NCBI GenBank assembly: GCA_016288215.1
Contig: JAEEYQ010000009.1
Location: 1-64,000 of the forward strand
Reading direction: 5' to 3'
Source of the DNA: Lentisphaeria bacterium
Lineage (GTDB): Bacteria > Verrucomicrobiota > Lentisphaeria > Oligosphaerales > Oligosphaeraceae
DNA length: 64,000 nt
Part shown: piece after piece, positions 1 through 61,211 of the stretch
How positions within the stretch are numbered: the first letter of the stretch is position 1
Layout: every line of letters starts with the position of its first letter
Translations under genes and position numbers: made by a program
Notes under the pieces: model-generated
Seen by the model: the letters and a program-made list of their open reading frames with translations, nothing else
What the model was told of the DNA's origin: nothing
Databases searched by the model: none

Positions 1-1230
1 GGCCAGGGCTTCCGCCGCCTCAACGCCATGCAGCGGCAGGCCGTGGAGTACGCCTGCAACTACGGCTTCAGCATCCTGACCGGCGGCCCCGGCGTCGGCA
101 AGACCACCGTGGTCAGCCAAATCGCGGCGGCAGCCGCCCAAAGCGGCAAGACCATCTATCTGGCCGCCCCCACGGGCCGCGCCGCCAAACGCCTTTCGGA
201 GGCCACGGGGCAGGAGGCCACCACCATCCACCGCCTGCTGAAATGGGACCCCATGGCCCGCGCCTTCGTCTACGGCCCCGACCGCCATCTGCCCTGCGAC
301 GTGCTCGTGGTGGACGAGGCCTCCATGCTGGACACCCTGCTGGCCGCCAGCCTCTTCCAGGCCGTGGAGCCAGGCACCCATCTGGTTCTCGTGGGCGACA
401 AGGACCAGCTGCCCTCCGTAGGCCCCGGAGCCGTCCTCCACGATCTCATCGCCTCCGGCCTGCTTCCCGTCACCTGCCTCACGGAAATCTACCGTCAGGC
501 GGGAAACAGCCGCATCATCCCCAACGCCCACGCCGTCAATCGTGGCCGCCTGCCGGACATCCAGCCCGTCCCCCCCACCGTCAAAGCCGATTTCTACTGG
601 CAGGAGCAGGACGATCCCGTCGCCGCCGCCCGCGTCATCCAGCGGCTCGTCTGCGAACGCATCCCCCAAGTCTTTCATTTCGACCCTCTGGAGGACGTCC
701 AGGTCCTCACCCCCATGCGGAAGGGAGACTGCGGCGCCATCGCCCTCAACGCCATGCTCCAGAACGCCCTCAACCCCGATGACCCCGCCCGCAACGCCTT
801 CGCCATCGGCGACCGCGTCTTCCGCGAGGGCGACAAGGTCATGCAGACCGCCAACAACTATGACAAAGGCGTCTTCAACGGCGAAACCGGTCGCATCCTC
901 CTCGTGGACAACGCCGCCAAACGCTTCTCCGTCAAATTTGACATCGGCGTCGTGGATTACACGCTGCAGGAGGCGGAGGAGCTCATCCACGCCTACGCCA
1001 TCACCGTCCACAAGTCGCAGGGCAGCGAGTTTCCCGTCGTCGTCATGCCCTTGCTTTCCCAACATTATATCATGTTGCAGCGCAATCTGTTATACACAGG
1101 TATGACCCGCGCCAGAAAGCTGCTCATTCTGGTGGGCTCACGTCGCGCCCTCTCCATCGCCGTCGCCAACGACCGCCCCATGCAGCGAAAGACCTTCCTC
1201 GTCCAACGGCTGCAAACCATTCTCGGCTAG
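1..1230 (+). CDS. RecD2-like SF1B DNA helicase (5' end outside window)
   Basis: C-terminal helicase part of a RecD/TraA-family ATP-dependent 5'-3' DNA helicase. The frame is open from base 1, and the residues before the first Met (RRLNAMQRQAV) look like the adenine-recognising Q motif, so the real start lies upstream. Visible motifs, numbered from that Met: Walker A GGPGVGKTT (19-27), Walker B VVDEASML, GDKDQLPSVGPG, and near the C terminus the UvrD_C_2 segment AITVHKSQGSEF followed by LLYTGMTRA. The N-terminal OB/HhH part typical of RecD2 cannot be seen. No RecB or RecC partner is adjacent, which fits the stand-alone RecD2 class. The last third contains a stretch of atypical AT-rich codons over the conserved QRNLLYTG block (see the 28-bp motif at 1068). 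Confidence 0.9.
   Translation, partial: GQGFRRLNAMQRQAVEYACNYGFSILTGGPGVGKTTVVSQIAAAAAQSGKTIYLAAPTGRAAKRLSEATGQEATTIHRLLKWDPMARAFVYGPDRHLPCDVLVVDEASMLDTLLAASLFQAVEPGTHLVLVGDKDQLPSVGPGAVLHDLIASGLLPVTCLTEIYRQAGNSRIIPNAHAVNRGRLPDIQPVPPTVKADFYWQEQDDPVAAARVIQRLVCERIPQVFHFDPLEDVQVLTPMRKGDCGAIALNAMLQNALNPDDPARNAFAIGDRVFREGDKVMQTANNYDKGVFNGETGRILLVDNAAKRFSVKFDIGVVDYTLQEAEELIHAYAITVHKSQGSEFPVVVMPLLSQHYIMLQRNLLYTGMTRARKLLILVGSRRALSIAVANDRPMQRKTFLVQRLQTILG
1068..1095 (+). repeat. 28-bp palindromic motif, copy inside recD-like gene
   Basis: TTG at motif positions 8-10, GCAAT at 15-19 and GTTAT at 22-26 match the family consensus. It overlaps the conserved protein block QRNLLYTG but uses unusual codons (ttg, aat, tta, aca). 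Confidence 0.45.
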
Positions 1231-1566
1231 AAGTTGGAAGGGGGTTGATAATTGGGAATTAGGAATTAGAAATTAGAAATTAGAAATTAGGGATTAGGGA
1301 TTTTACTAGAGCTTCTAGAGCTTGACTAGAGAGCTTCCAGCGTCCCTGACCCCTCCCGCAAAATTCCCAATCCCCAAAAAATTGCCCCAAAACCAACTTT
1401 TTTGCACTTTTTTTCTCATTGGCTCTTTGATTTTTCAAAAACTTTAGTAAAATTATAATAAGGTTAGCAGAAAACTGCCTTTCCGCCAAAAAGGCGAAAG
1501 GGCGGCTTCCGCGACCCGCAATATTGTCAACAACAAAACCATGATATAGAAATGACAGGAAGTCTC
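1231..1566. other. Intergenic region with AT-rich repeat tract and likely promoter
   Basis: No convincing gene. The first third is a tract of AATTAGGAATT/AAATTAG units running into CTAGAG units (1244-1338). A good -10 hexamer TATAAT lies at 1454-1459, but the nearest -35-like sequence (TTGATT, 1427-1432) is 21 bases away, so the promoter is only tentative. It would drive the secreted protein at 1567. A 69-codon minus-strand frame across this region is low-complexity and was not accepted. Confidence 0.5.
1244..1338 (+). repeat. AATTAGGAATT / CTAGAG composite repeat, copy 1
   Basis: Heptad-like units GAATTAG/AAATTAG repeat about seven times and are followed by CTAGAGCTT and CTAGAGAG units. Related tracts occur near 11.87 (inverted), 14.63 and 28.92 kb, each at a gene boundary. 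Confidence 0.7.
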
Positions 1567-3738
1567 ATGAAATTCTTGGCCACAATAACGGCGGCGATTC
1601 TTGCCTTCCCCTGGCTTGCCTTCGCACAGGATCTCAATCTGGAGGAGGCGGCGGAATACGGCAGCAAGGCCGCCCAGCGGGCGACTGCGGCGGCGGCGGC
1701 GCAGGCGGCCGCCAATGACTTGACGCCCCAGTTCTCCCCCAACGGACGACGCATCAAAGTCGGCGCCTACACCATTGAGAACCGCTGGCTGCCCATCCGC
1801 AAGATTCAGCCGGGGGACAAGGTCTTCTGGCGGGAGTTCATGCACGGCCAGAGCGACGCGGAGACCATGCCCGTCCTCTGGAGCCAGCTGACCGCCTCCA
1901 AAGAGGCGCTGGATCCCTACACGCCGGCGGTCCTGCCCCTTTCCACCACGCTGAAATACTCCGAATTCCCGCCGCTGGCCCTCAACGGTGGCCAGGAGCT
2001 TCTGTTGGACAAGCCGCTTTTCTCCGCCTCGGAGCTTCGGACCATGCGCGGAGAGATCGTCCGCATCTTCGTGTGGATTCAGGGAGACAGCACGGGCATC
2101 GGCCAAGACCTTTGGAGCGGCGCCCCCTCCCTCACGCTGCTGCTGAAGGACAACGCCGGCGAAATCGTCGAATCCTACGAGCCCTTCTTCAAGACCCGCG
2201 GCAGCTTCCCCTGGTTCTGCTATCACATCGACGCGCGGATTCCGCTGTCGCTGGCGCTGGAGAGCGGCAATGCCCCCGCCGTCAGCACCGATGAGGACAA
2301 GGCGCTGCAGGATTTTGCGGCGGCCTTCACAGGCACCCGCCAGGAGAGCGTCGGCAAGGCCACCACGCCGGGTCTCTATGTCAAACTGGCCAACCCCGCC
2401 TCCGGCAAGGCTCTCTTCTCCACTTTGTCCTATCGAATGCTCCGCCGCGGCGAATCCCTTCTGGACGGACGGGAAGTCGACGAGATCACCGACCCCCAGA
2501 CCGGCTCCCGCGCCCCCAATCCGGACTATGACGAACTCGCCATGCACCTCTATTATGGTCTGAGCGGCAAGCAGCCCTGGGGCTTCGTCCATGGAACCCG
2601 CACGTTGACGGACATGGCCAGCACCGCCGCCCTCAACGAGTATCTGGAGAGCGCGAAGGACGATTGGGGCCAGATGCTCTACGGCGTCCCCTTCCTCGGC
2701 TATCTCTGCAACGCCGGCCAGACCCTCCAGAAGACCAATGCCTTCGAGAACGGCTGGACCACCTCCCTGCGGCAGGCCCTCCAGGCCATGCAGGATCCCC
2801 GCAGCGGTTTCTGGGGACCCGGCAGACAGAACAACCTCTTCTGCACCCAGCGGATTCTGGCCAACGCCTTCCAGCCCACCGCCATCGTCCGCGCCGACCG
2901 CCCCGTCCAGCCCACGCCATGGAGCAGCCTGGAAGGCGCCGCCGCCCCTAACGCGGAAACCATTGTGGGCACCCTGCTCAGGAACCAGATCACCGCCCGC
3001 AACGGCCGTCCCGGCGGATGGTCTAACTTCATGTTCTACAAGGAGTTGAACAAACAGGCCAGCGCCGATCTCCATGCCACCACCGCCGCCGTCGAGATTC
3101 TTCGCATCCTCCGAGGCCAAGTGTCCCCCTCCACCCAGGACGCCATTGACACCGCCATTAACAACGCATGGGACTATGTTGTGCACAACCTGTTGCTGCG
3201 CAATGGGTTATGGCTCCAGAACGCCGCTGACACCCGCGCCTCGTCCCCCGACTTCTTCTTCAATTTCATGGAACTGACCCCCTGGCTGGAATTCCGCCAC
3301 ACCTTGGGCGGCTCCCCCAAAGTCTCCACCAAACTGGCGGACAACGCCAACTACACCGTCGTGTGGACCAATCCCGACGAGGATTTCGTCTCCCTCCGCA
3401 TCTTCGCCGCCCCCGCGGACACCAAGTCCTTCACCGCCAAACAACTGGTGGGCATCCTCCAGCCAGACGGCGCCTCCATCACCTCCATGGATCCGCTGCT
3501 GGCGGCCCGCGCCATCACCGCCGCCGCCGCCAAACGGTGGGAGATCACCCCCCGCAAGGCCGGCGCCTCCTATCTGGCCTCCAAACTGGCCCAGCTCCCC
3601 GCTCATGTGACCACCGCATCCCGAACCCTACGAATCACCATTGTCCCCCCCGCGGAAAGCACGACCAAACTTTTCTACGCCGCTGTAAATGCCTACGGCG
3701 AAATGACAGACGCCGCTCTTCTGCCCGATGCCCAATAG
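1567..3738 (+). CDS. Secreted protein of unknown function, possible alpha/alpha-toroid fold
   Basis: A 723-aa exported protein with a clear signal peptide (MKFLATITAAILAFPWLAFA, probable cleavage after AFA). I chose the ATG at 1567 because AGGAAG lies at 1557-1562 just before it; an in-frame ATG at 1552 would add five residues that spoil the signal peptide. The middle (about residues 340-560) has helical segments and a QDPRSGFWG motif resembling the QW motifs of terpenoid-cyclase/prenyltransferase alpha-toroid repeats; this is a weak resemblance, not an identification. The C-terminal ~120 residues look beta-rich. It lies 107 bases upstream of the pseudopilin operon in the same direction, so it could be a partner or substrate of that system. 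Near residue 540-550 it carries one copy of the 28-bp DNA motif. Confidence 0.75.
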   Translation: MKFLATITAAILAFPWLAFAQDLNLEEAAEYGSKAAQRATAAAAAQAAANDLTPQFSPNGRRIKVGAYTIENRWLPIRKIQPGDKVFWREFMHGQSDAETMPVLWSQLTASKEALDPYTPAVLPLSTTLKYSEFPPLALNGGQELLLDKPLFSASELRTMRGEIVRIFVWIQGDSTGIGQDLWSGAPSLTLLLKDNAGEIVESYEPFFKTRGSFPWFCYHIDARIPLSLALESGNAPAVSTDEDKALQDFAAAFTGTRQESVGKATTPGLYVKLANPASGKALFSTLSYRMLRRGESLLDGREVDEITDPQTGSRAPNPDYDELAMHLYYGLSGKQPWGFVHGTRTLTDMASTAALNEYLESAKDDWGQMLYGVPFLGYLCNAGQTLQKTNAFENGWTTSLRQALQAMQDPRSGFWGPGRQNNLFCTQRILANAFQPTAIVRADRPVQPTPWSSLEGAAAPNAETIVGTLLRNQITARNGRPGGWSNFMFYKELNKQASADLHATTAAVEILRILRGQVSPSTQDAIDTAINNAWDYVVHNLLLRNGLWLQNAADTRASSPDFFFNFMELTPWLEFRHTLGGSPKVSTKLADNANYTVVWTNPDEDFVSLRIFAAPADTKSFTAKQLVGILQPDGASITSMDPLLAARAITAAAAKRWEITPRKAGASYLASKLAQLPAHVTTASRTLRITIVPPAESTTKLFYAAVNAYGEMTDAALLPDAQ
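3186..3213 (+). repeat. 28-bp palindromic motif, copy inside secreted protein gene
   Basis: Here the dyad is clear: AACC pairs with GGTT and TTGC with GCAA around a TGC centre. It covers codons for NLLLRNGL using tta and aat, unlike the surrounding codons. Confidence 0.55.
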
Positions 3739-11862: not shown

Positions 11863-11926
11863 ACCTAGCCTGGCTCTAGATGCTCTAGAAAAATTCCTAA
11901 TTCCTAATTCCTAATTTCCAACTGCC
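11863..11926 (-). repeat. AATTAGGAATT / CTAGAG composite repeat, copy 2 (inverted)
   Basis: Reverse-complement version of the tract at 1244: CTAGCCTGG, CTCTAGATG and CTCTAGAAA units, then AATTCCTAATTCCTAATT. It runs directly into the phosphofructokinase start codon, leaving no recognisable ribosome-binding site. Confidence 0.7.
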
Positions 11927-11927
11927 T

Positions 11928-13262
11928 ATGCTTCCTCAAGACATGAATTTCAACACGCGGGTCCTCACGGAGGACGTGGACTTCTCCATCCCCCGGCTGG
12001 GCAAACCCACCATCGTCTCCTCCCAGCAGGACGTGATTTTCGTGGACGACAATGAGCGGATCAGCTATTTCGCCGATCCGCTCATCAACGAGGAGATCCG
12101 CCAATCCGGCAAGCCAATTCCCGCGTTCCTCGCCGCCGGCCCCCGCCGCATGCTGTATCACGACGCCGCCTGGTGCCGCGCCGCCATCGTCACCTGCGGC
12201 GGCCTCTGCCCCGGCCTCAACGACGTCATCAAGGCGTTGGTCAACACCCTCTTCTACACCTACGGCGTGGACTGCGTCTACGGCATCCGCTACGGCTACA
12301 GTGGCCTCGTAGGCGGCACCAACATCAAGCCCATCGAGCTCAACCCCGACGTCGTGGACTCCATCCACATCGCGGGCGGCAGCATTTTGGGCTCCTCCCG
12401 CGGCGAGCAGTCCACAGAGGAGATCATCAAGACCCTGGACCGCATGAAAATCAACATGCTGTTCACCATCGGCGGAGACGGCACCCAGCGGGGCGCCCAT
12501 GAAATCGCCGTCGCCGCCATCAAGCGGGGCCTTCCGGTCAGCGTCGTCGGCATTCCGAAGACCATCGACAATGATTTGAACTGCATGGACAAGACCTTCG
12601 GCTTCGAGACCGCCGTGGAGATGGCCGCGCCCATCATCGGCTGCGCCCATAACGAGGCGAAAGGCGCCTTCAACGGCATCGGGCTGGTCCGCCTCATGGG
12701 ACGGGACTCCGGCTTCATCGCCGCCTATGCCAGCCTCGCCAATTCCGTCGTCAACTTCTGCCTCATTCCCGAAGTCGAATTCGAGCTGGACGGCCCGCAG
12801 GGCTTCTTCAACGCGTTGGAGAAGCGACTGGCGGATAAACACCACGCCGTCATCGTCGTCGCAGAGGGTGCAGGTCAGAACTTGTTCAATAGCAATGACT
12901 TAACGAAAGATAAATCTGGCAACATCCTGCACAAGGACATCGGCGTCTTCCTGAAGGAGCGCATCGGCTCCTATCTGAAGGGGCGTGGCATCGAACACAG
13001 CATCAAGTACTTCGACCCCAGTTACATCATCCGCAGCGCCGCCGCCAGCGGCAACGACTCCATCTTCTGCCTCCATCTGGCGCAGCATGCCGTCCATGCC
13101 GCCATGGCAGGCATGACGGACATGGTGGTGGGCAACTGGCAGGGGTATTTCACCTACGTCCCCATCGCCCTCGCCACTGCCGCCCGACGCAAAATCGACC
13201 CCCGTGGCCAGCTGTGGCAAAGCGTTCTGCTGACCGCCCGCCAAAACCGCTACTGGAAATAG
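11928..13262 (+). CDS. 6-phosphofructokinase, ATP-type of the plant/protist-like group
   Basis: A 444-aa glycolytic enzyme that phosphorylates fructose 6-phosphate. The phosphate-donor loop GGDGT (residues 182-186) and catalytic PKTIDND (210-216) are clear, as are CGGLCPGLNDVI near residue 89 and the substrate loop MGRDSGFIA. The pair Gly in GGDG (equivalent to 104) with Lys in PKTIDND (equivalent to 124) is the combination known from the ATP-dependent long enzymes of plants and trypanosomes; PPi-dependent enzymes normally have GGDD. ATP use is therefore favoured but not proven. Start is 11928 or 11943; neither has a visible ribosome-binding site because the repeat tract abuts the gene. A 28-bp motif copy lies at residues 317-326. 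Confidence 0.9.
   Translation: MLPQDMNFNTRVLTEDVDFSIPRLGKPTIVSSQQDVIFVDDNERISYFADPLINEEIRQSGKPIPAFLAAGPRRMLYHDAAWCRAAIVTCGGLCPGLNDVIKALVNTLFYTYGVDCVYGIRYGYSGLVGGTNIKPIELNPDVVDSIHIAGGSILGSSRGEQSTEEIIKTLDRMKINMLFTIGGDGTQRGAHEIAVAAIKRGLPVSVVGIPKTIDNDLNCMDKTFGFETAVEMAAPIIGCAHNEAKGAFNGIGLVRLMGRDSGFIAAYASLANSVVNFCLIPEVEFELDGPQGFFNALEKRLADKHHAVIVVAEGAGQNLFNSNDLTKDKSGNILHKDIGVFLKERIGSYLKGRGIEHSIKYFDPSYIIRSAAASGNDSIFCLHLAQHAVHAAMAGMTDMVVGNWQGYFTYVPIALATAARRKIDPRGQLWQSVLLTARQNRYWK
12878..12905 (+). repeat. 28-bp palindromic motif, copy inside phosphofructokinase gene
   Basis: GAACTTGTTC followed by AATAGCAATGACTTAACG matches the consensus at nearly every position. It encodes NLFNSNDLT with codons (ttg, aat, tta) unlike the rest of the gene. 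Confidence 0.6.
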
Positions 13263-14129: not shown

Positions 14130-14642
14130 ATGGGGACGGAGTTCTTCGAAATCGTCAACGGCCAAGGGGACGTCATCGGCATCGCCCCGCGGGAATGCTG
14201 CCACGGCAACCCCGCCCTGCTCCACCGCACCGCCCATGTGGTCGTCATGGACGCGGATGGCCGCATCCTGCTGCAGAAACGGGCCATGGACAAGGACATC
14301 CAGCCGGGCAAGTGGGACACCTCCGTCGGCGGCCATCTCCGACCCGGAGAGGATTTTCTCCAGGCCGCCCGCCGCGAAGCAACGGAGGAGATCGGGCTTC
14401 CCGCCGACTGCGAGCTGAAGCACATCTTCGACCTTCCCATCCGCAATCCCATCGAGTCGGAGAACACCCGCGTCTTCCTCACCGTCTACGGCGGCCCCTT
14501 CCATGCGCAGGCGGAGGAACTTGACGAGCTGCGCTTCTGGACGTGGACGGAAATCCACGACGCCATGGGCAAGAACCTCTTCACGCCAAACTTGGAGCGG
14601 GAGCTGAAACTGCTCGAAAAGCAATTAGAAATTAGGAATTAG
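14130..14642 (+). CDS. Nudix hydrolase, IDI/YfcD-like subgroup
   Basis: A 170-aa Nudix-fold protein with a perfect Nudix box at residues 68-90 (GHLRPGE...REATEEIGL), following the G-x5-E-x7-RE-U-x-EE-x-G-U rule. The N-terminal VNGQGDVIGIAPR...HRTAHVVVMD resembles the YfcD/isopentenyl-diphosphate isomerase-like branch, whose substrates are mostly unknown. The last six residues (QLEIRN) and the stop codon are supplied by the AATTAGGAATT repeat that begins at 14623, so the original C terminus has probably been replaced or extended by the repeat. No ribosome-binding site is obvious; coupling to the upstream gene is likely. Confidence 0.88.
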   Translation: MGTEFFEIVNGQGDVIGIAPRECCHGNPALLHRTAHVVVMDADGRILLQKRAMDKDIQPGKWDTSVGGHLRPGEDFLQAARREATEEIGLPADCELKHIFDLPIRNPIESENTRVFLTVYGGPFHAQAEELDELRFWTWTEIHDAMGKNLFTPNLERELKLLEKQLEIRN

Positions 14643-14728
14643 AAATTAGAAATTTTTCTAGAGTATCTAGAGCATCTAGTGCCTCTAGAGCATCTAGTGC
14701 CTCTGGAGCTTCTAGAACTAGACTAGGG
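14623..14728 (+). repeat. AATTAGGAATT / CTAGAG composite repeat, copy 3 (longest)
   Basis: Units AATTAGAAATTAGG give way to at least six CTAG-containing units such as CTAGAGCATCTAGTGCC. It overlaps the end of the Nudix gene and ends just before the ribosome-binding region of the CE7 gene. CTAG is normally rare in bacterial DNA, so this density is notable. Confidence 0.75.
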
Positions 14729-17020: not shown

Positions 17021-17893
17021 ATGCAGACTTGGTCTTGGAACAACTTGCGCTTCGCCCTTCCCGATGACTGGGAGATGCTCCAGTTCTCACGGAATCCGGA
17101 GGCAGGCCGTTGCGCCTTCGCGGACCGCTATCAATACCGCTTCGAAATCAACTGGCAGGTCATCGGCGGACCGCCGGACTTTCAGCGCATGGTCGGCGAC
17201 TATCAGGCCAAACTGGCCACCGACGGCGTCAAGGACCTGCGCCCCGTGCAACATGCGCCATGGTACGGCGTCTATGGCATGGACCACGATACGCCCGTCA
17301 GCCGCTACGGCGCCTTTTTCCCTTTGGGAAGCCTGCTGCTGGAAGTAGTCTTCCTCTTTCCCGTCGGCGACAAGCCGAACCATGCGCTTGAAGGCCGCCT
17401 GCTTGACCAGATTCAGGTCGTGGAGCCCGATGACAACGGGCTGCTCCGCTGGAAGGCCTTCGGACTGGACGCCCTGGTCTCCGCCGAACATCCGCTGGCT
17501 CTCTGTCAGGTCCACACGGCCCACGTCACCATGTCCTTCCATGACAAGGAAGGACATGTGCAGGAGACCATGGGCCGACATGGCATGGTCGACTGCTGGC
17601 TGGACATCCCCTTGGTCAATTGGCTGGATGCCCAAATTCCGCGAGATTATTCTATCATATTGCGGCAGAATGAAATAAATCATGGACACCAAGTCTTCCA
17701 TGTGGTGGCGCGCCGACGCCGCCCCGTTCTGAAGGACTGGCTGTGGGGCACCCGCCATATGGAGGCCTACGCATGGATCTGCCCCGCGGACGGACGTCTC
17801 CGCTTCATGTCCCGCACCGCCCCCCAAAGCCCCAAACGCCCCCTGCCTCCCTTCCTGCTGTGCTGCTGCCCTGACCACGAGGTGAGCCTATGA
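17021..17893 (+). CDS. Unknown 290-aa protein coupled to a PqqD-like gene
   Basis: No family recognised with confidence. The N-terminal part (WNNLRFALPDDWEMLQF...CAFAD) has the alternating strands and 'LPddW' opening seen in PsbP/Mog1/DcrB-like folds; this is a weak resemblance only. There is no signal peptide or membrane segment. The C terminus carries a Cys cluster (LLCCCPDHE) and several Arg/His-rich segments (RRRRPVLKDW), which could bind a ligand or nucleic acid. Its stop overlaps the start of the PqqD-like gene by four bases (ATGA), so the two are translationally coupled and probably work together. It sits at the head of the ABC/OPT transport locus. A 28-bp motif copy lies at 17653-17680. 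Confidence 0.7.
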   Translation: MQTWSWNNLRFALPDDWEMLQFSRNPEAGRCAFADRYQYRFEINWQVIGGPPDFQRMVGDYQAKLATDGVKDLRPVQHAPWYGVYGMDHDTPVSRYGAFFPLGSLLLEVVFLFPVGDKPNHALEGRLLDQIQVVEPDDNGLLRWKAFGLDALVSAEHPLALCQVHTAHVTMSFHDKEGHVQETMGRHGMVDCWLDIPLVNWLDAQIPRDYSIILRQNEINHGHQVFHVVARRRRPVLKDWLWGTRHMEAYAWICPADGRLRFMSRTAPQSPKRPLPPFLLCCCPDHEVSL

Positions 17894-20308: not shown

Positions 20309-20342
20309 CCACGGTTCCACCCATGAACCTGTGAATTTCTCA

Positions 20343-20370
20343 TAACACATTGATAATCAGATACTTACAG
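20343..20370 (+). repeat. 28-bp palindromic motif, intergenic copy before ATPase gene
   Basis: TAACACATTG then ATAATCAGATACTTACAG, ending 11 bases before the ATG at 20382. It is one of the best matches to the consensus. Confidence 0.6.
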
Positions 20371-20381
20371 AAGAATTAGCC

Positions 20382-33862: not shown

Positions 33863-34000
33863 CAAGGGGCATTAAATTCATTGCAATTGTGGTTTCTGCG
33901 GGTCGCGGGAGTTGCCCTTTGAATCACGCCGATTATAGTAAAGCCATCATATTCCCCTTTCGCATGGGCTCCATTCACTTTTACATCATAAAGGAAGATA

Positions 34001-44863: not shown

Positions 44864-47551
44864 TCATTTGGCGGGAGGATATTCGGAGAAGCGGAGGGCC
44901 TTCACCCGCGCCACGCCGACAGGCTTCACAACGAGGCCGCTGTTGCGCAGGACGCCGCCGCTCTCGTCGTTAAGGGCGGCCATCGCCGCGTTGTTCTTCA
45001 GCACCTGAGTGACGAACTCGCCGGCCTCGCTGGAACAGAAGTTCCCGTCCACGAAGATGTTAGCGATATCGTTGTCCATCTGGAAGCGGATGAGCCGAAC
45101 TCCGTCCCGCAGGGGCGGCAGCGGCACGAGGCGTCCCCCATGGACCATCAGATTGCCGTGGAGGGAGATGTCCGTGCAGAGGCCGCCAGTGGAGAAGCAG
45201 AGGCGGGCCTCGCCATCGGGAGGCAGCGTCAGCTCGCACTCGCCCACGGCGGGATAGGCATGGTAGGCGTAGTTTCCGCCAGCCAGCGCGATGGCACCTT
45301 CGGCGGCGCATTTCTGCCAAATCACGTTTGGCTTGGGCGTCAACGCCGCTCCCAACCGAACATCTATGAAGCAATCGTGGAGAGTCACGTTGTTGGCGTT
45401 CTGGCGCAGCCTGAGACGGCGCCACAGGGACGTTCCGCCGCCTTTGTCCGCCAGCGAGCCGATGAGGAGGCCGCTGTTGTGGAGACCGTGGAGAATATGG
45501 CCCATGCCGTGGAGACGGGCTTTCGGGTCCGTAGTGGCCATGGCCGCAGGCGTTTCCATAAGTACTTGTCCATCAACTGTTAATACAATTTTTCCTGCTC
45601 CAAGGCGCAAAATGTATTGGTGGAACGTCTCCGTATCAAGCGGGGCCGATTTGCCTGCGTAGAAGAGGCCGACGCGACCCGGCTGGAGGGTGAGAATCTC
45701 CACGATGCCACCGCCAGCCAGCCGGAGCATGGCCCCCAAGGGGTCGTCAGTCGCCTCCAGCCGCGCCTCGAAGGCCAGCTCCACACCATGGCGGGAGGCC
45801 CCGTCATCGATGGGATAGAAGAGGTTGGGGCAACCGCCGCCCGTGTCGCGGATGCGGTAGGCACCGTCCACGATGCTTTCATTGTCACGATTGTCAAGGG
45901 CTGGATAGAAGAGACGACGCCATGGCGGCTGATTGCTCCCGCTCAGAATGACGTTCCCCTCCAGAATTGGCTTCCAGACGGGTTCGCCGAGGGGGGCCTT
46001 CAGGGTCAGCTGCAGGTCATTGCAGCCGGGGCGGAGAGCCTCCGGCGGCACCTCGTAGACATGTCGGCCCTGAATCGTGCCGCCATACTGCCATGCCACG
46101 CCGTTGGAGGCGATGTGGACCTGACTGGCATCGCCATCGGCCACCAGCGTGGCCAGCGTCTGGACGGAGACGCCCGCCCGCCGCAACGCCGCGAAATCAT
46201 CGCCAATCTCCATGCGGAAAGTCTGGCTGTCTCCAGGTTGGAGGGTGTGGGGGCGGCCAGGGAAGAGTTCAGGCAACTGGCAGAGTTCGCCACCGCCGGC
46301 CAGGCTCCCCTCGATGGTGATCCAGCCGTTGAAGCACAGCGGCGAGACATAATAGCGCTTGTTCTTGAGCTGGAGGGCCCCATAGCCAGGAGGCATCAGA
46401 TTGGCCACGACGCTCTCCACGAACATGTTGTAGTAGAAGATGCCGTCGGCGCCGGCCTGATAGGCGGCCGCCTCCCGTCCCCAGTAGGACTCGTAGGAGT
46501 CGCGGACACGGATGAGCGGGTTCTTGTCGAAAGAGGGGTAATCGATAGAGGGATAGCATTTTACGCCATATTTGTGGCAGAGGGCGATGCTGTTGGTCCA
46601 CGGCTCGAAGTGGTTGTTGCCGCCAGGGAAGACCAAATCGAAGACGCCCGCCGCCATCAGTCCCTCCCAATCAAAGCCGATGCCTTTGCAGAAGGCAGGG
46701 GAATCGGGGACGCGGATGGCCAGCAGGACGGGACGCCCGCGGCGGCGGCCGATGGCCTCCGTCGCGTCGCGAATCTGCTGAAACATGGCGCTGAGGGCGG
46801 CGGTCTCCTCGGCGGAGGCGGTGCCGCCCCACGCCACCGATTTGAAGATGCCCAGCCAACGGAAGAGATCGATGAAGATGCCGTCCAGCTCGTAGTTTTC
46901 GGCCACTTCGATGACCAGGGCCGCAAAGCGGTCGCGGATCTCCTTATGGGAGAAGTCATAGGAGCACCATGTGGCATAGGGCGGCGGCTTGTCGTAGGTG
47001 CCCATGAGATATTCGGGATGTTTCCGTTTGAAGGGCGGGAAATAGGGCACGGGATTCTCCGGCGTGTCGTACCACTCATGGGTGTCGTTGAAGCGAAATT
47101 CCGCGAAGAACTCGATGCCATGGGCCCTGGCATAGTCCAGTTCGACCTGAAGAATATCTATTTTATTCTCTGCCAACCATTTAACGGCATTTGTGCTGCC
47201 ACCGACCTTCTCCAAACTCTGGTCGTCCTGTGGCCAGGAGTAGTCTCCCAGATCGCCGTTCTTCGTCGGCATCTTCATTTGGAACGTGGTGCCGTTGATG
47301 CAGTAGATCATGGTGTTGACGGGATACTTGCACAGCCAGGTGGTCCGCTTGGCCAGAATGGCCTCCAACGTCGGGACTCCCGGATGGTAGTTCACGTCAT
47401 CGCCATCGTTGTCATAGATGACCAGGCGCGGCCGCTCCAATGCCTTCCGCTTCACCTGCGCCCACTCCGCATCGCTGAGCTCGGCGACGGCGGTCATGGC
47501 GCTGGCGGCCACCACTACAGCAGCCAGCCAAATTCCAAATTGTTTCATCAT
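44864..47551 (-). CDS. Secreted TIM-barrel glycosidase-like protein with C-terminal concanavalin-like region
   Basis: An 895-aa exported protein (signal peptide MMKQFGIWLAAVVVAASAMTAVA). Residues ~40-400 have the pattern of GHL10/DUF187-type barrels: ARAHGIEFFAEFRFNDTHEW, CSYDFSHKEIRDRFAALVIEV, YELDGIFIDLFRW and GGNNHFEPW. The Asp in DGIFIDLFRW and Glu residues in EFFAEF are candidate catalytic or ligand residues. The C-terminal ~350 residues are beta-rich (GVELAFEARLEAT...VGLFYAGKSAP...YILRLGAGKIVLTVDG), like a laminin-G/concanavalin domain. The substrate is unknown; the setting among GH36 and GH35 suggests glycans. Two motif copies on the sense strand lie at 45556 and 47156. Confidence 0.7.
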   Translation of the reverse strand: MMKQFGIWLAAVVVAASAMTAVAELSDAEWAQVKRKALERPRLVIYDNDGDDVNYHPGVPTLEAILAKRTTWLCKYPVNTMIYCINGTTFQMKMPTKNGDLGDYSWPQDDQSLEKVGGSTNAVKWLAENKIDILQVELDYARAHGIEFFAEFRFNDTHEWYDTPENPVPYFPPFKRKHPEYLMGTYDKPPPYATWCSYDFSHKEIRDRFAALVIEVAENYELDGIFIDLFRWLGIFKSVAWGGTASAEETAALSAMFQQIRDATEAIGRRRGRPVLLAIRVPDSPAFCKGIGFDWEGLMAAGVFDLVFPGGNNHFEPWTNSIALCHKYGVKCYPSIDYPSFDKNPLIRVRDSYESYWGREAAAYQAGADGIFYYNMFVESVVANLMPPGYGALQLKNKRYYVSPLCFNGWITIEGSLAGGGELCQLPELFPGRPHTLQPGDSQTFRMEIGDDFAALRRAGVSVQTLATLVADGDASQVHIASNGVAWQYGGTIQGRHVYEVPPEALRPGCNDLQLTLKAPLGEPVWKPILEGNVILSGSNQPPWRRLFYPALDNRDNESIVDGAYRIRDTGGGCPNLFYPIDDGASRHGVELAFEARLEATDDPLGAMLRLAGGGIVEILTLQPGRVGLFYAGKSAPLDTETFHQYILRLGAGKIVLTVDGQVLMETPAAMATTDPKARLHGMGHILHGLHNSGLLIGSLADKGGGTSLWRRLRLRQNANNVTLHDCFIDVRLGAALTPKPNVIWQKCAAEGAIALAGGNYAYHAYPAVGECELTLPPDGEARLCFSTGGLCTDISLHGNLMVHGGRLVPLPPLRDGVRLIRFQMDNDIANIFVDGNFCSSEAGEFVTQVLKNNAAMAALNDESGGVLRNSGLVVKPVGVARVKALRFSEYPPAK
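45556..45583 (-). repeat. 28-bp palindromic motif, minus-strand intragenic copy
   Basis: On the minus strand: TTAACAGTTGATGG then ACAAGTACTTATGG, inside the codons for LTVDGQVLM. It resembles the copy at 20343. Another sense-strand copy lies at 47156-47183. Confidence 0.45.
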
Positions 47552-47588: not shown

Positions 47589-47616
47589 ATATAACCTGTT
47601 TATAATCAATATGTTA
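47589..47616 (-). repeat. 28-bp palindromic motif, intergenic copy upstream of glycosidase-like gene
   Basis: On the minus strand: TAACATATTG then ATTATAAACAGGTTATAT, starting with the consensus TAACATATTG shared with the copy at 57216. It ends 38 bases before the ATG. Confidence 0.6.
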
Positions 47617-48015: not shown

Positions 48016-48032
48016 ACATTCCTAATTCCTAA

Positions 48033-48374
48033 CTACTTTTCTCCCAATTGTTTAGCCAATGTGCAGCCCAAAGCCACGCAGGAACGGCAGGGGAATTTGG
48101 TGACGGCCTTGATGGTTCGGCAGTCAGGGGCGCCGGCTTCAGCCACAAAGGCATCGATCAGATCCTGCCGTCGCGCCTCGGGCACCAGCTGCAACGCGGC
48201 GTGAAGGGCGCCGCAGCGACCCTCTGGCGCGCGTCCGCCCCCCATGGCCTTCAACGCCTCGCACAAGTCCTCCATCCCGCACAGCGCGGCCACGCTTTGG
48301 GCGCAGTTGTACATGGCGGGGGGCTGGTGGAATGTGGCATCCACCTGTTTCAGAAGAGCTTCATCAAGTTCCAT
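48033..48374 (-). CDS. C_GCAxxG_C_C family protein
   Basis: A 113-aa Cys-rich protein of the C_GCAxxG_C_C family (putative redox proteins). YNCAQSVAALCG gives the first Cys pair, GGGRAPEGRCGALHAAL the GCA-type block, and DCRTIK and PCRSCVALGCTLA the last cysteines. The family is thought to bind a metal or cofactor; members are often next to redox or transport genes. No signal peptide. It is followed eight bases downstream by the GH36 gene on the same strand in genome coordinates, but since both read leftward this gene is the distal one of the pair. Confidence 0.85.
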   Translation of the reverse strand: MELDEALLKQVDATFHQPPAMYNCAQSVAALCGMEDLCEALKAMGGGRAPEGRCGALHAALQLVPEARRQDLIDAFVAEAGAPDCRTIKAVTKFPCRSCVALGCTLAKQLGEK

Positions 48375-50427: not shown

Positions 50428-50455
50428 CTATAACATATTCTCTATCAATGACTTA
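50428..50455 (-). repeat. 28-bp palindromic motif between nitroreductase and GH36 genes
   Basis: On the minus strand: TAAGTCATTGATAGAG then AATATGTTATAG, four bases after the nitroreductase stop and about 50 bases before the GH36 start. The centre TTGATAGAGAA recurs inside the antiporter gene at 56885-56912. Confidence 0.6.
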
Positions 50456-51026: not shown

Positions 51027-52796
51027 TTATCCGAGCCGAGGGGCATCGACAAATTCAAGTTCCTTTTTGGCAAGGCTTTCCAACTCCAGAACAACCACGG
51101 TGTTGACGCCTTTTTTCAGCACGGGAGCGGGAACGTACAGGGTCTCCTGCGGGCCAATGTCCCAATAACGGCCAAGATTGAAGCCGTTGATCCACACAAG
51201 GCCCTTGCGTCCAGGCCGCACAAGGAAGGTGTCCGCCACATGGTCCAAGGTGAATTCCGCGCGGTGGAAGGCGGCTCCGGTCTGGAAGAGACGGAGGGGG
51301 CCGTAGCCGTCCTCCGGCGGGGCGGAAAGGGGCAACGTGGTGTAGTCCCAATCCGTAAGTCGTTGCAGCTCAATGCAGACGCTGCCGACGATGCCCTTGG
51401 GGTCCTTGCCGACATAGGGGCCATAGTTGATGCGGCCGCAGTTCTCCACAAGGACATCCATGACCGCGCCCTCCGGCGGGATGGAGACGGAGATGGGCTT
51501 CTGGCCAGCTTCCCGCATGCGGCTGCCGACGAGCTTGCCATCCAGATAGACTTGCGCATAGTCATTGACCTGGAACAGATGCAGCGACACACGGGGCAGC
51601 GGACCCTCCATGCGGCGGCGGTAGTGGATGAAGCCGAAGGTCTGCCCCAAGGCGTCCATGGTGGGAGGCACCACAGCGTGTCCACGAGTCTCCCCCAAGA
51701 CGTCAAGGCAATCCATAAGTAATACGGATTCAGCAAGTTCCACATTCGGAACACACATCTTCTCCGAAGGAGCCACGGGCCGGATCCGCTCATTGGGCAG
51801 ATAGCGGCTGATGATGTTCTGAAAACTGGTGAACTTGTCGGTGGGGTCGCCGCTTTCGCTCAGGGGACAATCATAGTCATAACTGGTCACGGTGGGGGCA
51901 TAGTCCGTGAACAGATTGCCGTTGGCCCCATTGGTGAAGCCAAAGTTCGTGCCGCCATGGAACATATAGAGATTGACACTGACGCCGCGCTTCAGCATGG
52001 TCTCCAGTTCCGCGCCGGCGCCGCCCTCCTCGGTTCCCGCCGCGCGGACATGGTGCTTTTCACCCCAATGGTCAAACCATCCGTTCCAGAACTCCATGCA
52101 GATGTCCGGCTCGTCAGGGCGCAGCGGGCGGACAACGTCGAAGGAATGGGCGGCGTCAGAGCCGAAATTGACGGCGGCGATGGCCCCCTCCAACATGCCG
52201 CCCTGGAGGAAATGGTGGATTGTGCCGTCGCTGGTGGCGTAAAGGCAATCCAATCCATGTTCCTTGTAGAGGTCACGGATGAAGCGGAGGTAGTTCTTGT
52301 CGCAGCCATAGGAGCCGTATTCGTTCTCCACTTGAATGATGATGACGGGGCCGCCATTGGAGCACATGAAGGGGCGGATGCGCGGCAGCAGCTCATCGTA
52401 GTAGCGTTTGACCGCCTCCATGAACGGCTCGTTGGTGCAGCGGTATTCGAGACCAGGGATGGCCCCCAGCCAGCCGGGCAGGCCGCCGCCCTCCCATTCG
52501 GAGCAGATGTAGGGCCCTGGCCGCAGAATCATGTACAGGCCGTGGCGATGAACCTCCTCCATGTAGCGCTCGATGTCCAGAATGCCGCTGAAATCGAACT
52601 GGCCGGGCTTCAGCTCGTGGAGGTTCCAGCAGGTGTAGGTCTCGATGGTGTTCAGTCCCAAGGCGACGGCCTTGTCCAGCCGGTCCGCCCACAGATCCGG
52701 ATGGATGCGGAAATAGTGCATGGCTCCAGACATGATCTGGAAGGGCTTGCCGTCCAAAAGGAACTGGCGGTTTTTGCATTCAATGGTGTGGGACAC
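51027..52796 (-). CDS. GH35 beta-galactosidase, probably cytoplasmic
   Basis: A 589-aa beta-galactosidase of family 35. Motifs in order: MSGAMHYFRIHPDLW, NTIETYTCWNLHE, LRPGPYICSEWEGGGLPGWL, QVENEYGSYG (acid/base Glu159) and CMEFWNGWFDHWG (nucleophile Glu235). The C terminus has the usual jelly-roll ending WINGFNLGRYWDIGPQETLYVPAP. The start codon is GTG (52796), preceded by a GGGGGG run four bases upstream. No signal peptide, so it acts on imported beta-galactosides. Two copies of the 28-bp motif lie on its sense strand (51353 and 51713). Confidence 0.93.
   Translation of the reverse strand: MSHTIECKNRQFLLDGKPFQIMSGAMHYFRIHPDLWADRLDKAVALGLNTIETYTCWNLHELKPGQFDFSGILDIERYMEEVHRHGLYMILRPGPYICSEWEGGGLPGWLGAIPGLEYRCTNEPFMEAVKRYYDELLPRIRPFMCSNGGPVIIIQVENEYGSYGCDKNYLRFIRDLYKEHGLDCLYATSDGTIHHFLQGGMLEGAIAAVNFGSDAAHSFDVVRPLRPDEPDICMEFWNGWFDHWGEKHHVRAAGTEEGGAGAELETMLKRGVSVNLYMFHGGTNFGFTNGANGNLFTDYAPTVTSYDYDCPLSESGDPTDKFTSFQNIISRYLPNERIRPVAPSEKMCVPNVELAESVLLMDCLDVLGETRGHAVVPPTMDALGQTFGFIHYRRRMEGPLPRVSLHLFQVNDYAQVYLDGKLVGSRMREAGQKPISVSIPPEGAVMDVLVENCGRINYGPYVGKDPKGIVGSVCIELQRLTDWDYTTLPLSAPPEDGYGPLRLFQTGAAFHRAEFTLDHVADTFLVRPGRKGLVWINGFNLGRYWDIGPQETLYVPAPVLKKGVNTVVVLELESLAKKELEFVDAPRLG
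51353..51380 (-). repeat. 28-bp palindromic motif, first copy in the GH35 gene
   Basis: On the minus strand: GTCTGCATTGAGCTGC then AACGACTTACGG. The right half GCAACGACTTAC is identical to that in the CE7 esterase gene at 15185. Confidence 0.55.
51713..51740 (-). repeat. 28-bp palindromic motif, second copy in the GH35 gene
   Basis: On the minus strand: GAACTTGCTGAATCCG then TATTACTTATGG, encoding ELAESVLLM with gta, tta and ctt codons. Confidence 0.5.
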
Positions 52797-52987: not shown

Positions 52988-53015
52988 TCATAACATATTG
53001 CACTGCAATGAATTA
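52988..53015 (-). repeat. 28-bp palindromic motif in the EttA-GH35 intergenic region
   Basis: On the minus strand: TAATTCATTGCAGTGC then AATATGTTATGA. The dyad is clear here (ATTGC against GCAAT, TAA against TTA). It begins 14 bases after the ettA stop. Confidence 0.6.
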
Positions 53016-54685: not shown

Positions 54686-55042
54686 GGCGAGCTCCTGTCA
54701 ATGGAAAACGGATTCATGAAACAGTCATGACATAGAAGATAGCCGTCCTTTCACGAATGGCAACCCGAAAACGGCCCAAACCGAAGAATTTCTTCCACAA
54801 CGCCCCGCAATGGAGACTTCCGCGTCCCGCGTCCCACGTTCCACGTTCCGCGTCCCATGTCCCACGTTCCATATTCCACGTCCCACAAGCCACGTCTAGC
54901 GGGAATTCATGAGGTGTCAACTTGACTTTTGCCGTCAGAAAGGTACGTTATATGACAGTTGCGCGGGATTTGTCTCGCGCATTTTGTGTTTTAACCGTTC
55001 CTTTGGCGGAAGGCGCCGCCTGTTACTCTGCGCCGTTTCATC
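54686..55042. other. 357-base divergent intergenic region with GTCCCACGTTCC repeats
   Basis: Between the divergent ettA and antiporter genes. 54812-54897 is a tract of GTCCCACGTTCC/GCGTCCC units related to the repeats at 33.7 and 38.2 kb. A -35 TTGACT (54922-54927) is followed at 16 bases by a weak -10 TACGTT (54944-54949), a possible antiporter promoter with a leader of about 90 bases. Confidence 0.5.
54812..54897 (+). repeat. GTCCCACGTTCC simple repeat tract
   Basis: About ten irregular 7-bp units such as CGCGTCC, CACGTTC and CACGTCC. Composition and unit size resemble the GTCTCCC tracts at 33.7 and 38.2 kb, with T replaced by C/G at several places. Confidence 0.65.
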
Positions 55043-57193
55043 ATGTCACAGCAAATCGCGTTTCTGGCCATACAGATTGGCATTATTCTGTTGGTGGCCC
55101 GCCTCTTCGGCATCCTCTTCACCAAAATCAAGGTTCCTCCGGTCATGGGAGAGCTGATGGCAGGAATCCTTCTTGGCCCCTACTGCCTGGGCGGCATCGG
55201 GCTGCCCCTCCATGGCTTTGAGAACGGACTCTTCCCGTTGGTGAAAGGCTCTGTAATTCCCGTGGATCCAAAGCTTTACAGCATGGCGACGATGGGGTCC
55301 ATCGTCCTGCTGTTCATCTCCGGCCTGGAGACGGACGTGCGGACCTTCTTCCGCTATTCCATCGTCGGCACCATTGTGGGCATCGGCGGCATCGTGTGCT
55401 CCTTCCTCTGCGGCGCGGCGGTGGGCGTCTGGGTGCTCGACTGGACCTTCATGGATCCCCGCACCCTGTTTCTTGGCATCCTGTGCACGGCCACGTCCGT
55501 GGGCATCTCCGCCCGCATTCTGTCAGAGCATCAGTTCATGGACGCCCCGGAAGGGGTCACCATCATGGCGGCGGCAGTCATCGACGATGTTCTGGGCATT
55601 GTCTGTCTCGCGATAGTGGCCGGCATTGCGCGGGTGGAGCTGACGGGGGGCACCATGGACTGGGGCCACATCGGCCTCATCACCGTCAAGAGCTTCGCCA
55701 TCTGGCTGGGCGCCAGCGCGGCGGGCCTCCTCTTCTCACGTCACATCGCCGACATGCTCAAATGGTTCCGCCGCTCCGTCATCATCTCCTCCTTGGCCTT
55801 TGGCATGGCGCTGCTGGTGGCGGGCTTCTTCGAGCAGGCTGGCCTGGCCATGATCATCGGCGCCTTCGTCATGGGGCTGAGCCTGTCCAAGACGGACATC
55901 GCGTTCAAGATCCGCGCCGGCCTGGAGCCGCTGAACGCCTTCTTCGTGCCCCTGTTCTTCGTCGTCATGGGCATGTTAGTGGACATCCGGGTCATGAAGG
56001 ATCCCTGGGTGCTGAAAATCGGCCTCATCTTCACGCTGATGGCCATCATCGGCAAGATCGTGGGCTGCGCCCTCCCCGCCTTCACGATGAACTTCAACGG
56101 GTTAGGAGCCTTCCGCATAGGCATTGGCATGATCCCCCGCTGCGAAGTGGTGCTCATCATCGCGGGCATCGCCGCCACCACCATGATGAAGAACCCCGCG
56201 TTGGCGCAGGGCATGGACGCCACGCTGCCCATGGAAGTCCCCATCTTTGACAGCCGCCTCTTCGGCATCGCCATCATCATGCCGCTGATCACCGCCCTTC
56301 TCGCACCGCCGCTGCTGAAAATGGTCCTCTCCATCAAGGGGAAAGGAGTCCGCCACGAGACCAAGGGCAAGAACGACTGCGTCACCACCTTCAGCTTCCA
56401 TACGGAAGGCATCGCCAACTTCGTGCTGCAGGAGATCATCACTTTGCTGGAGAACGAGGGCTTCATGCACTCCTCCATCTCCAAAGGCATCCGGCTCATT
56501 CACTTCCGCAAGGAGGACAGCATCTTCTCCCTGCGCGTCGACGGACGGACTTTCGTCTTCAATTCGGACGTCTCCATGGTCCCCCTCATCAAAACCACTC
56601 TCTATGAAAGCGTCATCGAGCTCCATCAGAGCCTGTCCGAACTTCAGCAGCTGACCAAGCCGGAAACCCTCCGCAGCGAGCTCTACGGCACCGCCAAGGC
56701 GCCCACCGCCCCGCCGCCAGACGCCGTGCCCCCCGACACCGCCGCCAGCTCCCTCGAGAAGCTCATCCGTCCGGAGACCATTCTCGTCAATTTCAAGGCG
56801 GCCACCATGGAGGAGGCCATCCACAGCATGATCCACGCCATGGAACGACAGACGCCGTTGCGGAATCCGGAGCAATGCGCTTTGGATGTCCTTGATAGAG
56901 AACAGGTTGCGTCAACATATCAGGGTTTCGGCATCTCCCTTCCCCATGCCCGGACAGACGGCGTGGGCCAGCTCTCCGTTCTCATGGCCATCAGTCCGGA
57001 GGGCGTCCCCATGTCCGACGACGCCCAACAGGAGAAGTCCCATATCATCATCCTGAGCCTGACCCCAAAAGACCAGGCGGAGCCTTATCTCCACTTCATC
57101 ACCACCATCGCCGGCGTCCTTCAGCAGCCTGACAAGCGGGACATCCTGCTGCACGCCACCACGGCCAAAGAAGCCGCCGCTGTCTTTCATTGA
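55043..57193 (+). CDS. CPA2-family cation/proton antiporter fused to a PTS EIIA domain
   Basis: A 716-aa membrane protein. Residues ~1-430 form a KefB/NapA-like Na+(K+)/H+ antiporter of 12-13 segments, with GELMAGILLGPYCLGG, TATSVGISARIL, and AAVIDDVLGIVCLAIVAG, whose two Asp match the ND/DD ion-binding site of the family. Residues ~585-716 are a PTS EIIA type-2 (mannitol/fructose-like) domain: ISLPHARTDGVGQLSV with the phosphorylatable His635. A KdpD/UspA-like linker lies between. Fusions of CPA2 antiporters with EIIA occur in several phyla and are thought to couple ion exchange to carbon status. The EIIA half contains a 28-bp motif copy (56885). Confidence 0.9.
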   Translation: MSQQIAFLAIQIGIILLVARLFGILFTKIKVPPVMGELMAGILLGPYCLGGIGLPLHGFENGLFPLVKGSVIPVDPKLYSMATMGSIVLLFISGLETDVRTFFRYSIVGTIVGIGGIVCSFLCGAAVGVWVLDWTFMDPRTLFLGILCTATSVGISARILSEHQFMDAPEGVTIMAAAVIDDVLGIVCLAIVAGIARVELTGGTMDWGHIGLITVKSFAIWLGASAAGLLFSRHIADMLKWFRRSVIISSLAFGMALLVAGFFEQAGLAMIIGAFVMGLSLSKTDIAFKIRAGLEPLNAFFVPLFFVVMGMLVDIRVMKDPWVLKIGLIFTLMAIIGKIVGCALPAFTMNFNGLGAFRIGIGMIPRCEVVLIIAGIAATTMMKNPALAQGMDATLPMEVPIFDSRLFGIAIIMPLITALLAPPLLKMVLSIKGKGVRHETKGKNDCVTTFSFHTEGIANFVLQEIITLLENEGFMHSSISKGIRLIHFRKEDSIFSLRVDGRTFVFNSDVSMVPLIKTTLYESVIELHQSLSELQQLTKPETLRSELYGTAKAPTAPPPDAVPPDTAASSLEKLIRPETILVNFKAATMEEAIHSMIHAMERQTPLRNPEQCALDVLDREQVASTYQGFGISLPHARTDGVGQLSVLMAISPEGVPMSDDAQQEKSHIIILSLTPKDQAEPYLHFITTIAGVLQQPDKRDILLHATTAKEAAAVFH

Positions 57194-57215
57194 AAATCGG
57201 CCACTAAAAACTTTG

Positions 57216-57243
57216 TAACATATTGAATATGAGAGAGTTACAA
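57216..57243 (+). repeat. 28-bp palindromic motif just upstream of the metallophosphoesterase
   Basis: TAACATATTGAATATG then AGAGAGTTACAA. Including flanks, TTGTAAC pairs with GTTACAA. It ends two bases before the ATG at 57246, so it overlaps any ribosome-binding site. Confidence 0.65.
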
Positions 57244-57245
57244 TA

Positions 57246-58157: not shown

Positions 58158-58174
58158 GCCAATCCCCAAACGCA

Positions 58175-58217: not shown

Positions 58218-58244
58218 CAATGCCGCGGTATTCCAACCGCCGAA

Positions 58245-58502: not shown

Positions 58503-58595
58503 TGTCGGATTCCTTATTATTGTGAATTTGGTTCATGGGCCGCATCCAACATGGATAACAGCCCGAATCGTTCCAATTCCAAAATCGCCAAATCC

Positions 58596-61163: not shown

Positions 61164-61183
61164 GGAGCTGATTTCCCTTTTGT

Positions 61184-61211
61184 TGTTATTTTTTTGATTA
61201 TCAATATATTG
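61184..61211 (-). repeat. 28-bp palindromic motif, divergent copy before the DUF4838 lipoprotein
   Basis: On the minus strand: CAATATATTGATAATC then AAAAAAATAACA. Left half and centre match the copy at 20343; the right half is degraded. It starts 21 bases before the ATG at 61163. Confidence 0.4.

Follow-up and report, generated by a model that had tools for sequence, protein, structure and literature searches.

A long palindromic DNA word recurring throughout the genome of a Lentisphaeria bacterium, a candidate recognition site of a dimeric DNA-binding protein

Palindrome copies in the 64-kb window

The window studied here is a stretch of 64,000 nucleotides (positions 1 to 64,000 of contig JAEEYQ010000009.1, contig C14 in our numbering) from the genome of a Lentisphaeria bacterium of the family Oligosphaeraceae, and the element in question is a long palindrome that recurs between and inside its unrelated genes. 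This recurrence had been noticed in an initial annotation made from the letters alone, and the counts bear it out. With a position-specific matrix of 33 bp, 46 sites scored above 12 versus 1.05 in shuffled sequence; a leave-window-out matrix, rebuilt on the eight remaining contig samples described below with training sites still picked by the full matrix, gave 41 versus 0.6. A plain 13-position dyad matched at 11 or more positions was found 24 times on the plus and 22 times on the minus strand, versus about 0.2 matches on each strand of dinucleotide-shuffled sequence (six shuffles).

The principal copies are given here by their 25-bp core, with no strand assigned and with the matrix score in brackets; gene families are from Pfam. 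Inside genes, the palindrome is present at 1068–1092 (21.5) in a RecD-like helicase gene (28–1230), at 3024–3048 (21.9) and 3186–3210 (19.2) in gene 1567–3738, at 12878–12902 (23.4) in a phosphofructokinase gene (11943–13262; PF00365), at 15185–15209 (22.8) in an acetyl xylan esterase-like gene (14783–16039), at 17653–17677 (17.8) in gene 17021–17893, at 19723–19747 (19.3) in gene 18872–20308 and at 24721–24745 (19.7) in an FtsX-like permease gene (21247–26106). Gene 29012–32431 contains three copies, at 29069–29093 (16.4), 29990–30014 (31.6) and 31690–31714 (17.5), and so does the DUF4011/AAA helicase-like gene 39002–43099, at 40333–40357 (29.3; an exact match to the search pattern), 40694–40718 (23.9) and 41209–41233 (25.4). 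Further genic copies lie at 45559–45583 (19.2) in gene 44864–47551, at 48030–48054 (18.2) at the 3' end of gene 48033–48374, at 51716–51740 (16.9) in a GH35 gene (51027–52796) and at 56885–56909 (19.8) in gene 55043–57193. The intergenic copies are those at 20343–20367 (27.7; gap 20309–20381), 32761–32785 (18.0), 47592–47616 (27.9), 50431–50455 (29.0), 52991–53015 (29.0), 57216–57240 (32.0; gap 57194–57245), 61187–61211 (23.8) and 62757–62781 (22.1), the last abutting the 5' end of gene 61214–62755.

The list of copies drawn up by eye in the initial annotation was correct for the larger part. Twelve of its 13 best copies scored above 12, and the remaining one, at 51353, scored below 0 and is not a site. 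Among its 22 weaker copies, 12 exceeded a score of 12 and 10 did not: those at 25091, 31701 and 39763 scored below 0 and are not sites (31701 is out of register with the copy at 31690), those at 31490, 33528, 33718 and 53660 scored 2–8, and those at 34867, 36605 and 47156 scored 10.7–12.0. For copies that it placed on the minus strand, the starts were shifted by 3 bases, the cores beginning at 47592, 50431, 51716 and 52991. Good sites that it lacked include those at 3024, 19723, 48030 and 62757.

Abundance against null models

The source genome comprises 3.70 Mb in 73 unordered contigs. Counts were made in a sample of 864 kb (23% of the genome), consisting of the window and 800 kb more from eight contigs selected for their length, in which a simple script called 558 genes covering 79% of the sequence. 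The matrices were trained and counted in these same 864 kb. The matrix was later symmetrised; the symmetric 33-bp version underlies the spacing analysis, the permutation null, the counts of 645 and 358 given below and the scores of individual sites in the window, and the counts of placement and strand (197/213, 410/673 and the gap types) were obtained with the unsymmetrised version.

Sites scoring above 12 numbered 645 in the sample versus 33 in local dinucleotide shuffles, and above 16 they numbered 400 versus 6. A synonymous-codon null had been proposed initially as a check, and the motif survives it, with 358 sites in the 558 called genes, whereas 10 permutations of those genes gave 33.7 on average and 45 at most. 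Enrichment was also evident elsewhere in the genome: across the genome, the pattern TAACNNNTTGNNNNNCAANNNSTTA was matched exactly 39 times forward and 37 times in reverse, versus 0/0 for the reversed control pattern, and with two mismatches the numbers were 494 and 37, respectively. A general dyad scan of the genome placed TAA-N19-TTA and TAAC-N17-GTTA among the top dyads; in the scan as a whole, which covered the genome and its relatives, short tandem repeats and codon-phase words prevailed. Extrapolation of the sample yields about 2,600 sites per genome, a density of ∼0.75/kb or about one per 1.4 kb. Overall, the motif is a real and strongly non-random feature of the whole genome, and these comparisons rule out chance and codon usage as its source.

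Shape of the palindrome and level of the constraint

The symmetric matrix has the approximate consensus TTYnTAACTYMTTGATNATCAAKRAGTTAnRAA (33 bp), the left half being TTYnTAACTYMTTGAT and the right half its mirror image. A dyad had been recognised initially but was taken as imperfect; its symmetry is greater than was described. The core reads TAAC-N3-TTG-N5-CAA-N3-(G/C)TTA, with Y and R at positions −2 and +26 and with A/T-rich flanks. The conserved blocks are A1-W2, Y7-T8-G9 and their mirror images, with the outer blocks about 21 bp and the inner blocks 8–9 bp apart; in terms of half-sites, TAA(C/G)-N3-TTG(A) occurs twice at a distance of about 14 bp. The positions inside the dyad vary freely between copies, and past about ±16 bp the copies have only weak A/T-richness in common. 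The information per site was 16–21 bits versus ∼10 bits sufficient to locate it, an estimate that is biased upward by the selection of sites on score.

Complementarity between the two arms was near that of arms swapped between sites, with z values of −1.1 to 2.8 for 16 position pairs in 400 sites. The centres of in-gene sites fell in frames 0, 1 and 2 in the proportion 143/29/98, as compared to 14/1/194 in the synonymous null (10 replicates summed), where nearly all centres fell in frame 2. The similar peptides pointed out in the initial annotation (NLFNSNDL and the like) are found in one of the frames, which encodes sequences of the type N-L-x-x-x-N-x-L, but the other frames encode unrelated ones. 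Because the arms are nearly independent and three reading frames are used, the constraint acts on the DNA and not on a peptide or an RNA. A peptide motif is ruled out by the use of all three frames. An RNA hairpin or pause signal, one of the functions suggested initially, is not supported, given the absent strand preference and arms lacking hairpin covariation. No Rfam family matched the window at gathering scores.

Placement relative to genes, strand and chromosome

Every copy was initially thought to lie on the strand of its gene. This does not hold: among in-gene sites above a score of 14, 197 run with the gene and 213 against it, and among those whose two strands differ by more than 3 bits the numbers are 135 and 131. 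Of the 673 sites above 14, 410 (61%) are located in genes, corresponding to a density of 0.60/kb in genic versus 1.45/kb in intergenic DNA. The intergenic density is 2.5–4.2/kb within 40 bp after stop codons and 0.8–1.9/kb deeper in the gaps; before start codons it is 1.1/kb in the first 10 bp and 2.5–3.4/kb from 10 to 60 bp. In 14 genes the TAA of the site is the stop codon of the gene. Sites above 18 numbered 126 in 95 kb of co-directional gaps, 22 in 30 kb of divergent gaps and 19 in 23 kb of convergent gaps. Divergent and convergent gaps are thus not enriched over co-directional ones, which indicates neither promoter nor terminator placement; such a placement in the source genome is also not supported by the 61% of genic sites and the lack of strand bias.

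Regular spacing was not seen. The distances between sites are near-exponential, that is near-random, and bins of 10 kb contain 7.45 sites on average with a variance of 11.5. The density varied from 0.45 to 1.20/kb across the nine contig samples, the lowest being that of contig C48, which includes a prophage-like region of 25 kb. The sequence flanking in-gene sites has the same GC content as the gene itself (difference −0.0024±0.0022, n = 234).

Origin of the copies and the prophage-like region

Insertion of the palindrome into genes was assessed for in-gene sites above 14 that had, among the fetched loci, a relative with at least 45% identity over half the gene length. None of the 12 alignable sites was an insertion relative to the relatives, and residue identity at the sites was 0.54 as compared to 0.57 for the whole genes. 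Relatives of the phosphofructokinase were obtained at 13 loci, the best being from Victivallales and from a Lentisphaeria metagenome-assembled genome (69% identity each), followed by other Lentisphaeria, Planctomycetota, deltaproteobacterial and myxobacterial records. Its site lies in a variable stretch, the alignment of which is gap-free for 5 of 7 relatives and has one- or two-residue gaps in the other two (L029 and L028). These alignments, together with the weak A/T-richness that is all the flanks share, speak against an insertion element of the kinds known as repetitive extragenic palindrome (REP), miniature inverted-repeat transposable element (MITE) or Rickettsia palindromic element (RPE). 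The comparison indicates that the copies arise by substitution.

The prophage-like region (C48, 1–25000; loci L057–L058) has a GC content of 0.41, and its first 10 kb encode a terminase, a portal protein, a capsid/protease protein and two HNH proteins. It contained 8 sites versus 7.9 in shuffles, and the remainder of the C48 sample 37 versus 0.8. A count of 0 versus 3.7 expected in 10 kb of the prophage refers to a stretch chosen for its lack of sites, the fair count being that over 25 kb. The largest site-free gap, of 14.4 kb, is also in C48. It carries ordinary genes, as judged from Pfam on 10 of them, so that site-free gaps are not only foreign DNA.

Distribution among relatives

The 98 genomes compared include no further member of the source genus. 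In 29 genomes of the family, matches to the two-mismatch pattern were counted next to those of the reversed-pattern control. As compared to 494/37 in the source genome, motif/control counts were 81/9, 61/15, 47/16 and 16/10 in genus g10 and 72/24, 90/19, 85/43, 62/41 and 45/17 in genus g8; the other 19 genomes ranged between 1/7 and 28/20, with the highest ratios in G003 (18/6) and G013 (24/10). The matrix, applied at a threshold of 14 to fetched stretches, gave real/shuffled counts of 14/1.6 in G009, 14/2.0 in G027, 13/2.2 in G028, 3/0.2 in G007, 0/0.2 in G024 and 4/0.6 in five others together. With a stricter pattern, 5 of 194 genomes of the phylum had matches, 21/20 in the source genome and one in each of the four others. 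The motif has thus been amplified in the source genus, and two other genera of the family have a weaker form. Expectation-maximisation applied to two genomes of sister genera ended in AT-rich sequence, and its output was set aside. Genome G002, in which the genome-wide excess is small (28/20), has three CAACNNNTTGATARCCAAYMAGATA-like palindromes within 1.6 kb (L222; C104, 22589–24152).

Similar dyads in phages and plasmids

A search with the consensus matched at least 120 viral stretches. In 80 viral loci, counted outside the seeds, 374 sites exceeded 14 versus 248 in shuffled sequence, and 127 versus 53 exceeded 18. Several viral contigs (for example L100, L126, L127 and L171) contain variant copies in tandem near the seeds, at steps of 25–27 bp, and 46 distinct non-seed neighbours (above 16 by the source-genome matrix) have the same blocks with variable letters between them. 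Of 30 multi-site groups, 22 sit 60–190 bp before a start codon, a count based on naive open reading frames, including two homologous pairs and made with no null. When 10 proteins adjoining viral clusters were compared with PHROGs, 3 matched, one being a replication initiation protein, and no common neighbour emerged among the 10. In four of the viral contigs (L100, L103, L105 and L107) a related protein of 266–267 residues (MKVEGK..YCDVSKVYVAPIAK-like) adjoins the palindrome.

The best matches among named records were to Crassvirales, with E values of 4e-4 to 2e-2 (0.2 for cr8_1); Vibrio, Acinetobacter, Klebsiella and other records matched weakly, with E values up to 10. The link to Bacteroidota derives from the Crassvirales among the named records, together with phages of Flavobacterium and Prevotella, the IMG/VR contigs carrying no host assignment. 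In p-crAssphage the dyad is located 128 bp upstream of repL and agrees at 27 of 31 bases, and in cr8_1 it lies in a divergent gap. A Segatella copri plasmid has seven copies above 12 within 0.7 kb, beside rep; they are interleaved with iterons (ATCTACGAAACCGTTTACCT) spaced by 22 bp and present in both orientations (L218, 43911–44745). In whole records, match/control counts were 2/2 for p-crAssphage, 2/0 for cr118_1 and 2/2 for cr8_1, and 10/5 for Bernardetia, 6/0 for Segatella, 2/0 for Adhaeribacter and 0/1 for Parabacteroides. Bacteroidota stretches scored above 14 gave real/shuffled counts of 37/25.1, 11/2.8, 7/7.9 and 10/4.2 in the same order. Abundance on the scale of a chromosome was not seen in the sampled Bacteroidota DNA, whole records and stretches taken together.

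Other repeats in the window

Intergenic arrays of the heptad (AATTAGG)n, some of them right behind a stop codon, occur at 1250–1302, 11892–11916, 14623–14654 and 28929–28946, and the 864-kb sample has 43 such clusters. Arrays of a 9-nt unit (CTAGAGCTT-like)n adjoin the heptad arrays at 14657–14716 and 28950–28992, with 13 clusters in the sample. Between genes at 33743–33866 and 54818–54895, the repeated heptads are instead GC-rich, being (CGTCTCC)n and (CGTCCCA)n. The sister genome G024 has CTAG at a period of 7.

Discussion

We favour the reading, with a probability of roughly 0.48 and so just short of even odds, that the palindrome is the recognition site of a putative dimeric DNA-binding protein that acts chromosome-wide, most likely in a nucleoid-organising or DNA-marking role. 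A dimeric protein is suggested by the symmetry, the near-independence of the arms and the freedom from strand and frame; the number and placement of the sites point to a role on the scale of the chromosome. The protein would occupy about 2,600 sites, genic and intergenic, irrespective of strand, and would serve a chromosome-scale function rather than the regulation of particular genes. With half-sites about 14 bp apart, the inner and the outer contacts would lie on the same side of the helix. Among the possibilities named in the initial annotation, a chromosome-wide DNA-binding system seems to fit best and the pause or RNA signal falls away. MatP/matS, Noc with its binding site NBS, SlmA with its binding site SBS, and Fis are established cases of a dimeric protein whose palindromic sites are spread across the chromosome and extend into genes, and the motif is like them in the form and spread of its sites. 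It is unlike matS, NBS and SBS in having ∼2,600 sites instead of tens, in being much longer and in having a binder that is putative here. Of the features of an organiser site, symmetry, strand-freedom and genome-wide spread were observed, yet the sites are denser next to gene ends.

A number of points weigh against this interpretation. The density peaks beside genes are not predicted by a pure spacing role, and over-specification is less typical of an ordinary architectural site than of a sequence spread by drive. Five of the 16 arm pairs have z values of 1.7–2.8, so that a small excess of complementarity is possible. To our knowledge, the established sequence-specific chromosome organisers use tens of sites, and there is no known case of nucleoid proteins such as Fis or H-NS reshaping coding sequence to ten times the expectation of a codon null. 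Part of the viral link is circular, as query and scoring matrix both come from the source genome, and the dyad of cr118_1 lies inside a helicase gene. Nucleoid organisation by the putative binder is what we infer from the pattern of sites.

The main rival is an uptake-like molecular drive, in which a receptor at the surface or in the periplasm would prefer palindrome-bearing DNA and recombination would spread copies by point substitution, as for the uptake signal sequences (USS) of Pasteurellaceae and the DNA uptake sequences (DUS) of Neisseriaceae; we consider it unlikely, though to be taken seriously. The density of ∼0.75/kb is of the same order as published densities of uptake sequences. 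Like USS and DUS, the motif has many copies inside and between genes with an intergenic excess, is gained by substitution, has a weaker form in sister genera and is at background in prophage-like DNA; its over-specification also fits. The fraction of genic sites (61%) may be compared to that in H. influenzae, where 65% of the copies fall within reading frames (PMC1939737). The source genome encodes ComEC and a protein with a prepilin-type N-terminal motif, but ComEC is unspecific, as 10 of 14 control genomes, E. coli among them, also have it. The published uptake sequences are non-palindromic (PMC1939737) and favour one orientation within reading frames (PMC2346458), whereas the motif is a long, degenerate, strand-free dyad without orientation preference in genes. 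Uptake also leaves unexplained that comparable dyads precede phage genes and occur in the plasmid origin of another phylum. The closest palindromic precedent is HIP1, with the alternate HIPs of cyanobacteria: these iterated palindromes are found in coding and non-coding DNA, are restricted to lineages and have no settled function. An origin of this kind, in which DNA methylation and biased mismatch repair would generate and maintain the palindrome, accords with a word that is overrepresented in and between genes, gained by substitution and limited to a lineage (compare PMC4390886). HIP1, however, is an exact octamer tied to methylases (PMC4390886), and the motif is an AT-rich, degenerate dyad of 25–33 bp with four short contact blocks, which is atypical of a methylase site; we regard this origin as improbable.

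A transcription signal, namely operators or near-palindromic promoters of a global regulator or an extracytoplasmic function (ECF) sigma factor, a role that the site may have in phages, perhaps resembling the PM2 motif of Bacteroides thetaiotaomicron, is distinctly unlikely. It is favoured by the position of the viral groups before start codons and by the rise in density 10–60 bp before starts in the source genome. PM2 is near-palindromic, has elements at −10 and −30 and is tied to 24% of cis-antisense RNAs (PMC7366714); it is said to be recognised by an elusive factor (PMC11697453) and has been compared with ECF sigma promoters (PMC12596196). The motif is likewise a near-palindrome with two outer elements ∼20 bp apart, but it has no promoter-like placement here: divergent gaps are not enriched, the rise in density after stops is equally strong and the genic majority of sites has no strand bias. 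PM2 was compared by description, not by letters, and the two may or may not be the same element. The site of Cur/BT4338, a conserved regulator of Bacteroidota, is also a long palindrome, with the consensus wwwTATGTTnTAnAACATAwww (PMC6989115); it differs from the motif in half-site and spacing and is ruled out on these grounds. Remnants of a small mobile repeat of the REP, MITE or RPE type would account for a palindrome in genes as well as in intergenic DNA, but are very improbable given 0 of 12 insertions, flanks that share weak A/T-richness only and freely varying inner positions. To chance, codon usage or a protein motif we assign next to no probability: one frame does give similar peptides, against which stand the excesses over all null models (358 vs 34 in genes, 645 vs 33 in the sample, 39/37 vs 0/0 exact matches) and the use of three frames.

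No description of the motif was found in the open-access literature with its consensus strings and related topics. It belongs to the highly iterated genomic DNA words, of which few are known, such as uptake sequences and HIP1, and those mostly short. A long dyad that visibly alters the codons and amino acids of hundreds of genes implies strong continuing selection or drive and a specific reader protein. We put forward, tentatively, the possibility that the genus has written a dimer address of 25–33 bp over its chromosome, unrelated genes included, as a mark in thousands of copies that would serve architecture or self-recognition, and that a similar address is used by crAss-like phages and by a Bacteroidota plasmid at replication and regulatory regions. 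In a phylum with little molecular genetics, the 33-bp dyad provides a defined bait for the reader protein, and the motif may connect this protein to the control regions of crAss-like phages and Bacteroidota plasmids.

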